This document shows, piece by piece, positions 28,993-48,416 of a stretch of 64,000 nucleotides of DNA. Position 1 is the stretch's first letter. Every line of letters begins with the position of its first letter. The notes under the pieces were generated by a model. The model was not told where the DNA came from, did no database searches, and saw only the letters and a program-made list of their open reading frames with translations. The stretch is from positions 1 to 64,000 of the forward strand of contig NZ_JAIMJB010000003.1 in NCBI RefSeq assembly GCF_021295345.1, given 5' to 3'. This DNA comes from Motilimonas eburnea. GTDB taxonomy: Bacteria; Pseudomonadota; Gammaproteobacteria; Enterobacterales; CBDFNC01. The translations under genes and the position numbers were made by a program.

Positions 28993-29065
28993 CTACTACA
29001 TCAAATCTACGGCAACACTAACGACTGTGATAAACTTCTCACTTTACTTTGGTAACTGTGTTTCT

Positions 29066-30196
29066 ATGGCCACTCTCGATCTTGTCCAACTTGCTGATGA
29101 TATTAAACAATGGGGCCGCGAGCTTGGCTTTGCTCAGATCGGTATTGCAGATATCGACCTGTCAGCCCATGAACCCGAGTTACAGCAATGGTTGGATGCT
29201 AACTATCACGGTGAAATGGACTACATGGCCCGCCACGGCATGATGCGCGCCCGTCCCGATGAACTTCACCCCGGCACCCTTAGAGTCATCTCTGCGCGAA
29301 TGGATTATTTGCCGCCCGATGCGAGCTTTGCCAAGGATTTAAAACAGCCCGATATCGCTTACATTAGTCGCTACGCTCTGGGTCGTGATTACCATAAAAC
29401 CTTACGTAAACGGCTAAAACAACTTGGCGAAAAAATCAAGCAAAGTGTGCCAGAGCTGGACTATCGACCCTTTGTCGATTCAGCACCGATTTTAGAGCGC
29501 CCCTTAGCCGCAAATGCGGGTTTAGGCTGGGTCGGTAAACATTCGCTAGTGTTAGATGAACACGCGGGATCTTGGTTTTTCCTCGGTGAGCTGTTGGTCA
29601 ACATCCCCTTACCCACAGACCAAGGCGTCGAAGAAAAGTGTGGTCACTGCACCGCCTGCATGACGATTTGCCCAACACAAGCCATCGTAGAGCCCTACGT
29701 GGTGGATGCCAGGCGCTGTATCTCCTATCTCACCATCGAATTGCAGGGCGCGATCCCCGTTGAATTTCGTCCATTGATAGGCAACCGCATCTACGGCTGC
29801 GATGATTGCCAATTGATTTGCCCTTGGAATCGTTATGCCAAGCTAACCAATGAGGCTGACTTCATGCCCCGCGCCGCACTCAAAGGGCAGCAGCTACTGA
29901 CCTTATTCAACTGGAGTGAAGCCGAATTTTTAGAGCAAACACAAGGCTCCCCCATTCGCCGCATTGGCTATCAACGCTGGCAACGAAACTTGGCTGTTGC
30001 GCTAGGCAACGCACCACACGATCAAGCTATTATTGACCGCTTGCAAATCGCACTAGGGCAATGCGAATCAACCATGGTTGCTGAACATATTCAATGGGCT
30101 TTAATACAACAGCAACAAAAGGCTGATTTAATGCTGACCAAAAAAACACAACGATTAATTAGAAGTATCGAAAAAGGCCTCCCTCGCGACGCTTAA
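29066..30196 (+). CDS. queG: Epoxyqueuosine reductase QueG
   Basis: Cobalamin- and iron-sulfur-dependent enzyme that reduces epoxyqueuosine to queuosine in tRNA; about 376 residues. Two [4Fe-4S] motifs are visible: CGHCTACMTICP near 192 and CDDCQLICPWN near 245, and PFVDSAPILERPLA is a family block. I use the ATG at 29066 (MATLDLVQLADDIKQW), which aligns with the E. coli start. An in-frame GTG at 29027 would add 13 residues. The upstream MITE may supply or disturb its promoter. Confidence 0.94.
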   Translation: MATLDLVQLADDIKQWGRELGFAQIGIADIDLSAHEPELQQWLDANYHGEMDYMARHGMMRARPDELHPGTLRVISARMDYLPPDASFAKDLKQPDIAYISRYALGRDYHKTLRKRLKQLGEKIKQSVPELDYRPFVDSAPILERPLAANAGLGWVGKHSLVLDEHAGSWFFLGELLVNIPLPTDQGVEEKCGHCTACMTICPTQAIVEPYVVDARRCISYLTIELQGAIPVEFRPLIGNRIYGCDDCQLICPWNRYAKLTNEADFMPRAALKGQQLLTLFNWSEAEFLEQTQGSPIRRIGYQRWQRNLAVALGNAPHDQAIIDRLQIALGQCESTMVAEHIQWALIQQQQKADLMLTKKTQRLIRSIEKGLPRDA

Positions 30197-30314: not shown

Positions 30315-31055
30315 ATGCAAATATTAGGTGTTGATATTGGCGGCTCTGGCATCAAAGGTGCCATAGTAGAAACAACCACAGGTGAACTGGTCACTGAACG
30401 TCACCGTATTCCAACTCCGCAACCAGCAACGCCAGAATCCGTGGCTGACACATTAAAGCAATTGGTTGACCATTTTGACTGGCAAGGTCCGGTAGGCTGT
30501 GGCTTTCCCGCGACCGTAGTCCATGGCGTAGCTAAAACCGCATCTAACATCGACAAGAGCTGGATCAATACCAACGCAGCCGCGTTGTTTAGCGAGCGTA
30601 CCCACTGCCCCTGTTTTGTGGTCAATGATGCAGATGCCGCAGGCATGGCGGAATTTACCTTTGGCGCAGGCCAAGGTAAAACCGGAGTCGTGGTATTGAT
30701 TACCATAGGCACAGGTTTAGGGACGGCGGTATTCACCAATGGACAACTGTTACCCAACACCGAACTCGGCCACATAATGTTAGAAGGCATGGTTGCCGAG
30801 CACTACACCGCCGATTCAGTGAGAAAACGAGAAGAACTGGGCTGGAACAAATGGGGAAAACGGTTTAACAAATACCTACAACGATTAGAATTTTTACTAT
30901 CACCAGACTGTTTTATTCTTGGTGGCGGAGCCAGTAAAAAACTAGAAAAATTTGCCCACCAGCTTGAAACGGATGCCGAGGTGATCCCAGCACAGTCCCT
31001 TAACCAAGCAGGCATTATTGGCGCGGCTTTATTTGCTCAGAGTGAATTAAAATAG
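30315..31055 (+). CDS. ppgK: ROK-family polyphosphate glucokinase-like protein
   Basis: Sugar kinase of 246 residues. The phosphate-binding loop [16 protein letters not shown] at the N-terminus, the substrate loop [16 protein letters not shown] near residue 100 and the second phosphate loop [11 protein letters not shown] near 135 place it in the ROK family. The overall size and the ELGHIMLEG segment fit polyphosphate/ATP glucokinases (PpgK). The zinc-binding CXCGXXGC motif of NagC/Mlc-type ROK repressors is absent. Use of polyphosphate rather than ATP is not provable from sequence. A single gene, followed by a terminator. Confidence 0.85.
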
Positions 31056-31216: not shown

Positions 31217-31292
31217 TGGAGCGGTACACGAGGTTCGAACTCGTGACCTCAACCTTGGCAAGGTTGCGCTCTACCAGCTGAGCTAGTACCGC
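31217..31292 (-). tRNA. tRNA-Gly(GCC), copy 1
   Basis: 76-nt tRNA with acceptor GCGGTAC/GTACCGC, anticodon loop TTGCCAA (anticodon GCC), T-loop TTCGAAC and encoded CCA. Its anticodon stem is CAACC/GGTTG (A28-U42). Confidence 0.97.
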
Positions 31293-31328
31293 TTCATTAT
31301 TAGCTCATTTTTACAAATTATCACAACT

Positions 31329-31368
31329 AAGGTTGCGACTCTTTATACGGCAGCTGAGCTAGTACCGC
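31329..31368 (-). pseudogene. tRNA-Gly 5'-half remnant A
   Basis: Starts with the tRNA-Gly 5' sequence GCGGTACTAGCTCAGCTG, then diverges (CCGTATAAAGAGT replaces the rest of the D arm) and returns to the anticodon-stem 5' strand, GCAACCTT. No anticodon, T arm or 3' half. Confidence 0.85.
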
Positions 31369-31404
31369 TTCATCATTAGCTCATTTTTACAAATTATCAC
31401 AACT

Positions 31405-31444
31405 AAGGTTGCGACTTTTTATACGGCAACCGAGCTAGTACCGC
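31405..31444 (-). pseudogene. tRNA-Gly 5'-half remnant B
   Basis: Same 40-nt form as remnant A, exactly 76 bp further from tRNA1. It has small changes (GCTCGGTTG in place of GCTCAGCTG). Confidence 0.82.
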
Positions 31445-31488
31445 TTTATTATTAGCTAATTTTTAAGACTTAAGCTCTGTCGTAAATT

Positions 31489-31564
31489 TGGAGCGGTACA
31501 CGAGGTTCGAACTCGTGACCTCGACCTTGGCAAGGTCGCGCTCTACCAGCTGAGCTAGTACCGC
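31489..31564 (-). tRNA. tRNA-Gly(GCC), copy 2
   Basis: Same as copy 1 except for a compensated pair in the anticodon stem: CGACC/GGTCG (G28-C42). CCA is encoded. Confidence 0.97.
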
Positions 31565-31600
31565 TTCATGATTAACTCATTTTTACAAATCATCTCAACC

Positions 31601-31640
31601 AAGGTCGCGACTCTTTGTACGGCAGCTGAGCTAGTACCGC
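31601..31640 (-). pseudogene. tRNA-Gly 5'-half remnant C
   Basis: 40-nt remnant with intact 5' 18 nt and the CCGTACAAAGAGT substitution, ending in the G-type anticodon stem GCGACCTT. It lies 76 bp upstream of tRNA2. Confidence 0.84.
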
Positions 31641-31683
31641 TTCATTAGTAGCTAATTTTTATGACTTAAGCTTGTCGCAAATT

Positions 31684-31759
31684 TGGAGCGGTACACGAGG
31701 TTCGAACTCGTGACCTCAACCTTGGCAAGGTTGCGCTCTACCAGCTGAGCTAGTACCGC
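31684..31759 (-). tRNA. tRNA-Gly(GCC), copy 3
   Basis: Identical in form to copy 1, with the A28-U42 anticodon stem and encoded CCA. Confidence 0.97.
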
Positions 31760-31795
31760 TTCATGTTTAACTCATTTTTATAAATCGTCGAACCA

Positions 31796-31835
31796 AAGGT
31801 CGCGACTCTTTACGCGGCAGCTGAGCTAGTACCGC
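31796..31835 (-). pseudogene. tRNA-Gly 5'-half remnant D
   Basis: 40-nt remnant (CCGCGTAAAGAGT variant) 76 bp upstream of tRNA3. Confidence 0.83.
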
Positions 31836-31879
31836 TTCATTATTAGCTAATTTTTAAGACTTAAGCTCTGTCGTAAATT

Positions 31880-31955
31880 TGGAGCGGTACACGAGGTTCG
31901 AACTCGTGACCTCGACCTTGGCAAGGTCGCGCTCTACCAGCTGAGCTAGTACCGC
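31880..31955 (-). tRNA. tRNA-Gly(GCC), copy 4
   Basis: Identical in form to copy 2 (G28-C42). First intact tRNA in the direction of transcription; two remnants precede it. Confidence 0.97.
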
Positions 31956-31991
31956 TTCACATTTAGCTCATTTTTATAAATCATCGAACCT

Positions 31992-32031
31992 AAGGTCGCG
32001 ACTCTTTATACAGCAGCTGAGCTAGTACCGC
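31992..32031 (-). pseudogene. tRNA-Gly 5'-half remnant E
   Basis: 40-nt remnant (CTGTATAAAGAGT variant) 76 bp upstream of tRNA4. Confidence 0.83.
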
Positions 32032-32067
32032 TTCATGTTTAACTCATTTTTATAAGTTATCACAACC

Positions 32068-32107
32068 AAGGTCGCGACTCTTTATACGGCAGCTGAGCTA
32101 GTACCGC
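32068..32107 (-). pseudogene. tRNA-Gly 5'-half remnant F
   Basis: 40-nt remnant, the first element after the promoter and 76 bp upstream of remnant E. It would form the leader of the precursor. Confidence 0.83.
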
Positions 32108-32162: not shown

Positions 32163-32190
32163 ATTATAGGGAGCTTTCGTTTCAATGCAA
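32163..32190 (-). promoter_or_regulatory. Promoter of the tRNA-Gly array
   Basis: Minus strand TTGCAT (32190-32185), 16-bp spacer, perfect TATAAT (32168-32163), then a GC-rich discriminator (TCGCTTCCC). The block CTCCCTATAAT and the preceding AAACGAA are shared with the rRNA promoter at 458-485. Confidence 0.88.
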
Positions 32191-32238: not shown

Positions 32239-32784
32239 TTAAAAAGTGAAAAAGTGTTGCTTATAGTGAACCAATTCGCCAATGGATTCACGAATATCAT
32301 CCAATGCTAAATGAGTACCTTGTTTCTTAAACGCTTTAACCATATCAGGCGCCCAGCGGCGGCCAAGCTCTTTGATGGTACTCACATCAATATTGCGATA
32401 ATGGAAATAGGCTTCCAGCTCGGCCATGTGCTTCACCATAAAGCGGCGATCTTGGCCGATACTGTTTCCACACATAGGCGATGCCCCTGCCGGCACCCAC
32501 TGCTTAAGGAAATCAAGCGTCATGGCGACGGCGTCAGCTTCCGAATATTGGCTTTCTTGAACCCGCTTCACTAAGCCCGAGTTAGTATGAGTGTTGGTAC
32601 ACCAATCATCCATTTTGTCCAATTCGGTTTGGGGTTGGTGGATTGCGATCACTGGGCCTTCGGCCAAAATATTAAGTTCACTGTCCGTGACAATAGCAGC
32701 AATTTCAATCACCTTGTGTTGCTCTGGATCCAAGCCGGTCATTTCCATGTCTACCCACACAAGATTGTTTTCATTTATGCTCAT
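32239..32784 (-). CDS. orn: Oligoribonuclease Orn
   Basis: DEDDh 3'-5' exoribonuclease that degrades di- and short oligoribonucleotides, including pGpG from c-di-GMP breakdown. The 181-residue protein shows the motifs [12 protein letters not shown] (first Asp and Glu), the central Asp block and [11 protein letters not shown] near the C-terminus. It is divergent from rsgA, the standard gammaproteobacterial order. Relevant here because two diguanylate cyclases lie downstream. Confidence 0.97.
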
Positions 32785-47900: not shown

Positions 47901-48416
47901 TTAAGCATGTTCATGTTCATGGTCATGGTCATGGTCATGGTCATGGTCATGGTCATCCAGTGTGATACCAAACCGAGCGAACAACGCCGCACTGGGCTCG
48001 GATTCGTCTTCACCCGTGGCTAAGTAATACAAATGCTCCCATGTTAGAGCATAAGCGAGGGCTAAACGTTGTAAACGCTGACGCTTTATATTGCGTTCAG
48101 GTAATAACTGTGCCCCTGAAAACTGCTGTAACTGCTCGATAATATTAACAAAACGCATGGCATGGCCTGGCACTGAAGCCGCTTGATTGAAGGCTTGCAA
48201 GGCACACCAAAAGCGCGCATCGGTCTCTTGATCTTGGTAGCGCTGCCCTTGGCAAATATCATGATAAAACGAACCGCTGTTGCCCCCTTGTTTGATGATG
48301 TAATGGGCTAACTGCTCGGCTAAAAATGCCTGACCATATTGGGTAATGAGCGCCTGAGACAAAGGCGTCTCAGGTTGTGCTAATTGTTGAAAAAATATCT
48401 GCCATTGCTGAGACAC
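47901..48416 (-). CDS. Uncharacterised protein with His-Asp/Glu repeat tail
   Basis: A 171-residue protein I do not recognise. Residues 1-150 are probably helical. The last 18 or so residues alternate His with Asp or Glu, a pattern that can bind divalent metals. GTG start at 48416 with AGGGAGA upstream. It lies between the J-domain-like gene and epmA on the same strand. A metal role is inference from the tail only. Confidence 0.75.
   Translation of the reverse strand: MSQQWQIFFQQLAQPETPLSQALITQYGQAFLAEQLAHYIIKQGGNSGSFYHDICQGQRYQDQETDARFWCALQAFNQAASVPGHAMRFVNIIEQLQQFSGAQLLPERNIKRQRLQRLALAYALTWEHLYYLATGEDESEPSAALFARFGITLDDHDHDHDHDHDHEHEHA
47906..47956 (-). repeat. Hexanucleotide repeat encoding the His-acidic tail
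   Basis: Two CATGTT units followed by six CATGGT units (plus-strand reading), all in frame. Each unit encodes His-Asp or His-Glu. Copy number could vary without shifting frame. Confidence 0.93.

Follow-up and report, generated by a model that had tools for sequence, protein, structure and literature searches.

Do the pieces of tRNA sequence that lie among the intact tRNA-Gly genes of Motilimonas eburnea mark the decay of old gene copies, or do they form an element that is retained for a purpose? Spacers in tRNA operons are usually regarded as waste; the one described here can be recognised as tRNA-derived, keeps its position and occurs in several families. From the sequence comparisons that follow, we judge it to be a conserved, self-folding and probably transcribed spacer that was born from a copy of a tRNA gene.

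Within the window, by which we mean the whole 64,000-nucleotide stretch that was analysed, the array occupies positions 31217-32107 on the minus strand and is flanked by orn and a ROK-family gene. tRNA-derived remnants (R) and intact tRNA-Gly(GCC) genes (T) succeed one another in the order R-R-T-R-T-R-T-R-R-T, and with their neighbours they are arranged as follows:

32239..32784, minus strand: orn (oligoribonuclease, RNase_T domain), directly upstream, the synteny anchor
32163..32190, minus strand: likely promoter, TTGCAT, 16 nt, TATAAT, then a C/G-rich discriminator TCGCTTCCCG (read from the sequence, upstream of the first R)
32032..32107, minus strand: remnant R1, 76 nt (model match, E 1.8e-14)
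31956..32031, minus strand: remnant R2, 76 nt (model match)
31880..31955, minus strand: tRNA-Gly(GCC) T1 (ARAGORN; Rfam RF00005)
31836..31879, minus strand: spacer from T1 to R3, 44 nt
31760..31835, minus strand: remnant R3, 76 nt (sequence, step spacing)
31684..31759, minus strand: tRNA-Gly(GCC) T2 (ARAGORN; Rfam)
31641..31683, minus strand: spacer from T2 to R4, 43 nt
31565..31640, minus strand: remnant R4, 76 nt (sequence, step spacing)
31489..31564, minus strand: tRNA-Gly(GCC) T3 (ARAGORN; Rfam)
31445..31488, minus strand: spacer from T3 to R5, 44 nt
31369..31444, minus strand: remnant R5, 76 nt, the TAGCTCGGTTG variant (sequence, step spacing)
31293..31368, minus strand: remnant R6, 76 nt (sequence; fold)
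31217..31292, minus strand: tRNA-Gly(GCC) T4, final gene of the array (ARAGORN; Rfam)
30315..31055, plus strand: ROK-family gene, convergent, downstream boundary
29027-30196: gene beyond the ROK-family gene, which we take to be queG-like

ARAGORN calls exactly four tRNA-Gly(GCC) genes here, all on the minus strand and with the agreement of Rfam RF00005, as the initial annotation had proposed; its picture of genes alternating with remnants holds in that the two are interspersed, but the order given above is too loose for strict alternation. The opening 18 nt of each of the six R are those of the tRNA (exact in five, with two changes in the R at 31369-31444). A stretch of about 13 nt, CCGTATAAAGAGT or a variant of it, then stands in place of 6-7 nt of the tRNA, after which the unit resumes with CGCRACCTT of the anticodon stem before diverging from the tRNA, in line with the earlier description of a replaced D arm. 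The spacing was likewise as described, with a step of 76 from every R to the next element and steps of 120, 119 and 120 from T to R. The meaning that had been attached to 76 as the length of a whole tRNA did not hold up: the units of relatives span 73-92 nt, which makes the match coincidental. The tandem repeats themselves (TRF scores 340, 1134 and 285) exclude a chance origin of this pattern, and in the TRF analysis R and T are co-amplified as a 196-bp unit. We ruled out an assembly artefact because such arrays are found in many independent species and also in assemblies that consist of just one to three contigs (G012, G036, G056). Neither ARAGORN nor the tRNA covariance model scores any R of the window as a tRNA, so R lacks the recognisable cloverleaf of a functional tRNA gene. 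At a distance from the array, window positions 47906-47956 hold a hexamer repeat, CATGGT, in 8.5 copies with 97% matches.

The likely promoter at 32163..32190 has a weak -35 and is absent from the list of a consensus promoter scan; in nearly all related arrays a comparable promoter-like site precedes the first element by 40-150 nt. Inside R, the consensus scan gave no excess of promoters (3 vs 2.0 expected), a count on which we dropped the idea of a promoter within each R, and a scan for intrinsic terminators found none within the window array. An upstream promoter combined with no internal terminator and no excess of internal promoters thus places R probably in the tRNA transcript, and the placement of the promoter makes joint transcription of the R units with the tRNAs the most likely arrangement. 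The genes past the queG-like gene are presumably tsaE, amiB and mutL, and we take the site of the array to be the place of glyVXY in E. coli.

Comparison across related genomes, which had been put forward as a check, revealed that several families have such elements, and have them at the same loci. Elements of like kind (73-92 nt) lie directly 5' of tRNA-Gly in Motilimonas, Agarivorans/Aliagarivorans, Ferrimonas, Pseudoalteromonas and one Shewanellaceae genome, and both conserved tRNA-Gly loci carry them. Because most arrays adjoin orn across these groups, directly downstream of it in Motilimonas, Agarivorans, Ferrimonas, Pseudoalteromonas and the Shewanellaceae genome, we favour vertical inheritance of the element. 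The second set of R in the window's genome belongs to a Gly-Cys-Leu array that follows uvrY-uvrC-pgsA (gene names read from translations) and is the counterpart of glyW-cysT-leuZ; Gly-Cys-Leu arrays with R also occur in other genera. The Shewanellaceae genome, which shares its GTDB family with Ferrimonas, has a single R, made from its own tRNA sequence GATACC. We also noticed a second type of R (TAGCTCAGCTGGATGAATGAAAAGACGCAACC) in Pseudoalteromonas, for example at G517:C1:101962 and G570:C2:2813458, at a site that differs from the usual one and is possibly the Gly-Cys-Leu array.

A motif search of the named genomes returned most of its matches from Pseudoalteromonas and others from Ferrimonas, Agarivorans, Aliagarivorans and Motilimonas. 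By species, a strict pattern matched 72 of 108 in Pseudoalteromonas, 7 of 7 in Agarivorans and 7 of 14 in Ferrimonas, numbers that include a small chance background as judged from a reversed control, with at least one Ferrimonas match and several Pseudoalteromonas matches looking like chance. Across 148 genomes of the Pseudoalteromonas family, matches were confined to the genus Pseudoalteromonas, and since about a third of the species in that genus are without a pattern match, the element is dispensable. We set aside the count from an order-wide model search (40 of 395 genomes), because many of the matches covered no more than the 5' half of an intact tRNA (positions 1-41, about 23 bits). An exact-pattern scan of the genome contig collection with the window's own motif gave zero matches, and among the matches listed from a search of the plasmid collection, none spans most of the window array.

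For a closer view of the unit we collected 216 examples (176 distinct, 73-92 nt), inclusion requiring a next element within 70-95 nt. In all 216 that element is either tRNA-Gly (145) or another R (71). Of the 65 arrays with enough flank, 64 have T as their last gene-like element and 49 have R as their first. Because arrays end in T in 64 of 65 cases and the next element is always T or R, R is fixed to the 5' side of tRNA-Gly, and the random position that a neutral pseudogene would take within an array is not what we found. The copy number of R rises independently of T, to as many as five consecutive R, and many T genes have no R before them, as in the array RRTTTTTT (copy numbers in arrays L050, L051 and L049 are lower bounds owing to runs of N inside them). 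Collected R keep the 5' 15-18 nt of the tRNA and the 5' strand of the anticodon stem, and their tRNA-derived letters match the co-resident tRNA variant at acceptor position 5, at position 16 and in the anticodon stem. The proposed origin from a tRNA copy is well supported by this retention of the tRNA's 5' 18 nt and anticodon-stem strand in step with local tRNA variants, a tracking that shows either ongoing recombination with T or a constraint on both. Within the first 15 tRNA-derived nt of R, G3>A at acceptor position 3 outnumbers every other change by a wide margin; 27 of the 176 distinct units have it, spread over several clades, and it would make pairing with the 3' strand of the tRNA less stable.

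Outside the tRNA-derived part, sequence similarity between families is clear only for Agarivorans and Ferrimonas. We rejected an R-specific sequence common to all families, ordinary spacers of Motilimonas and Agarivorans being equally similar. What the families have in common is size, position, tRNA origin and hairpin layout, not sequence, and for that reason either the sequence of an ancient element has drifted while its structure was constrained, or the element originated repeatedly.

In each clade, the new (non-tRNA) part of the unit is predicted to pair with the tRNA-derived part. The Motilimonas unit is predicted to form a single long hairpin with helices P1 (TAGCTCA/TGAGCTA), P2 (TATAAA/TTTATA) and P3 (CGCAAC/GTTGTG); R6 of the window folds with the same P1, with P2 as TATAAA/TTTGTA and with P3 as GTCGCAAC/GTTGTGAT. 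Over 16 Motilimonas sequences, 91.9% of cells are paired, compared with 22-42% in slid controls, and the covariation score exceeds all 500 shuffles, with changes from C-G to U-A in P1 and from G-C to A-U in P2. A fourth Motilimonas genome, which lay outside the derivation of the structure, has TGACTCA for TAGCTCA and by eye can still pair it with TGAGTTA. In Pseudoalteromonas, 99.1% of cells are paired (slid controls 17-49%) and none of 500 shuffles scores as high, with 31 double-change cells. In neither clade does a number of cells equal a number of independent events, and the double changes may stem from few of them. The lack of structural constraint expected of a neutral pseudogene is thus contradicted in both clades, where covariation stands above shuffles and slid controls. 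In the joint alignment of Agarivorans and Ferrimonas, 77% of cells are paired (slid controls 28-45%) and covariation is not above shuffles. The covariance folding that had been suggested as a check therefore found compensatory pairing in Motilimonas and Pseudoalteromonas but none above shuffles in Agarivorans/Ferrimonas. A single column-wise consensus structure for all clades was not possible: each clade has its own pairing register, and for that reason RNAalifold on plain MAFFT alignments yielded weak structures.

Shuffling the new part alone, next to an unchanged tRNA part, gave poorer folds than the real sequence in all 14 clusters of sequences (mean z -1.61); ordinary spacers from a tRNA to the next element likewise beat their own shuffles (mean z -1.67). 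For Agarivorans and Ferrimonas, the next tRNA is usually better protected in its native predicted fold by the real new part than by shuffled versions (for example, acceptor stem 0.82 vs 0.31 shuffled). Equilibrium folding gave no such protection in Motilimonas and most Pseudoalteromonas units tested (real 0.26-0.49, shuffled 0.38-0.48) or at any of the four R-T junctions of the window, and protection of the downstream tRNA failed as a universal rule on the Motilimonas and Pseudoalteromonas units.

The Gly element is probably one of several tRNA-derived cases. The window's genome also contains six units of 98-101 nt before tRNA-Pro genes, each of which joins 5' sequence of tRNA-Pro(UGG) to an insert GTCGCGAAGCTCATAAAGAGT, the 3' strand of the anticodon stem and new complementary sequence:

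G000:C69:178300-181200 (L164), reverse-complement coordinates 1203, 1635, 1734, 1834, 1933 and 2031: Pro units

Five of them stand in tandem directly 5' of tRNA-Pro, in an Arg-His-Leu-Pro array like argX-hisR-leuT-proM, and Pro units are present in three Motilimonas genomes (also L217 and L218). Units of the opposite (3') type follow tRNA-fMet, with the 3' part kept and the anticodon replaced; their pattern matches seven genomes of five genera, and some are clearly degenerate (L166, G000:C22:141800-144200; L068, L194-L204). It is conceivable, although we think it quite doubtful, that the Gly, Pro and fMet operons of marine Gammaproteobacteria share a general class of tRNA-derived structured RNAs with one building rule, a local tRNA half plus complementary new sequence, which would be cut out as stable RNAs that control the supply of tRNA or the response to stress. 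As a separate observation, the tRNA covariance model matches twice, side by side (47 and 37 bits), at G000:C2:123544-123671 (L156), where ARAGORN finds no tRNA.

Our tentative preference is for R as a self-folding spacer that acts in cis in the pre-tRNA-Gly precursor. A copy of a tRNA-Gly gene would have lost its 3' half, and the new 3' sequence would pair with the retained tRNA strands. In the precursor, R would fold first, sequester the spare copy of the tRNA 5' half, leave an AU-rich single strand ahead of the next tRNA and be excised in the course of RNase E/RNase P processing; joint amplification and homogenisation of R and T as one module could account for its persistence. This possible role is supported by the pairing of the new part with the retained strands, with covariation in Motilimonas and Pseudoalteromonas, by the T-proximal 5' placement and by the recurrence at the same two loci. 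We also count in its favour the better-than-shuffled folding of the new part, the usual protection of the next tRNA in Agarivorans and Ferrimonas and the tRNA-Pro elements of like layout. We also count the precursor of E. coli glyVXY, which RNase E cleaves efficiently in vitro by direct entry, a mode that depends on unpaired segments near the tRNAs (PMC3985628). Against a cis role we count the absent equilibrium protection in Motilimonas and most Pseudoalteromonas, the ordinary spacers that also beat their shuffles, the covariation null in Agarivorans and Ferrimonas and the patchy presence in Pseudoalteromonas.

The same RNase E data lend themselves to a different reading, in which R is a positive processing signal whose structured block and unpaired AU-rich stretches admit RNase E or order the cuts of RNase P and RNase E. 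The predicted tails of R do end in AU-rich unpaired stretches, and the glyVXY precursor is a substrate of the kind that direct entry needs (PMC3985628), but many T in the same arrays do without a preceding R, as in RRTTTTTT, and T-T spacers do equally well in relatives without R; we regard such a signal as unlikely. That R leaves the precursor as a stable, trans-acting small RNA also strikes us as unlikely, if a little less so. It accords with tRNA operons as known sources of such RNAs (PMC4986893; PMC5222698), with a predicted fold that is compact and conserved and with the independent rise in R number. However, R-specific sequence is largely lineage-specific between families, so that no common seed is visible, and the unpaired stretch with the highest conservation is simply the 5' end of the tRNA itself.

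Could R instead be functionless, a set of degenerate duplicates that arose by deletion in tandem tRNAs, were copied by unequal crossing-over and stayed recognisable through recombination with intact genes? Letters that follow the co-resident tRNA, the co-amplified 196-bp R-T unit, the patchy presence among species and the degenerate look of some related fMet remnants would all fit. Compensatory change between the tRNA-derived and new parts in two clades, strict 5' placement and same-locus recurrence across families speak against it, and we consider it distinctly unlikely; the same recurrence and compensatory pairing disfavour the reading of the remnants as only neutral decay. It is very improbable that R serves as a regulatory competitor whose acceptor 5' strand pairs with the 3' strand of the downstream tRNA and keeps it unfolded until R is cut off. 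In most Motilimonas and Pseudoalteromonas units tested, the predicted equilibrium fold of R plus T indeed loses the native acceptor stem, and the acceptor strand of R follows that of the tRNA; yet the recurrent G3>A change would weaken this pairing, the Agarivorans and Ferrimonas folds avoid it, and equilibrium folding of unmodified RNA ignores co-transcriptional order. Two further ideas of the initial annotation, an RNase decoy and a recombination module, found no direct support, although R and T are clearly co-amplified.

The cis-acting spacer that we tentatively prefer offers a concrete system for asking whether by-products of tRNA operons are retained for a purpose. It also lends itself to the question of what prevents duplicated tRNA halves from interfering with the folding of adjacent tRNAs, and it may affect the automatic annotation of partial tRNAs in these genera.

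R has fold support in two clades and is without an Rfam entry: in Rfam 15, cmscan of the window region (to E 5) and of six related loci (gathering thresholds) matched no family but tRNA at or above threshold. We found no description of the element in the open-access literature that we searched. The closest parallel suggested at the outset was rtT of the E. coli tyrT operon, which resembles R as a small RNA element in tandem copies inside a tRNA operon transcript. rtT holds tRNA-derived sequence, a 3'-end piece of the tRNA; it is longer than R, which by contrast keeps the 5' half, with the anticodon-stem 5' strand, and precedes tRNA-Gly. The parallel stands in kind, rtT being an RNA from a tRNA transcript for which a trans-acting role has been proposed (PMC4986893), but the covariance model of the Rfam RtT family matches neither the window nor the six related loci. 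3'ETS-leuZ, to our knowledge not tRNA-derived, is like R a non-tRNA part of a tRNA precursor, that of E. coli glyW-cysT-leuZ; its precursor is processed by RNase E, and in the marine genera studied here R is present in operons of that type. 3'ETS-leuZ is a 3' trailer, whereas R is internal and upstream of tRNA-Gly, and it has been shown to act in trans as a sponge derived from a tRNA operon (PMC5222698). We place R beside these RNAs from tRNA operons by analogy only, and outside the RtT family. With tRNA pseudogenes and truncated copies, R shares derivation from a tRNA gene and the inability to form a tRNA; it differs from them in its compensatory pairing in two clades, its fixed 5' position and its recurrence at the same loci across families.
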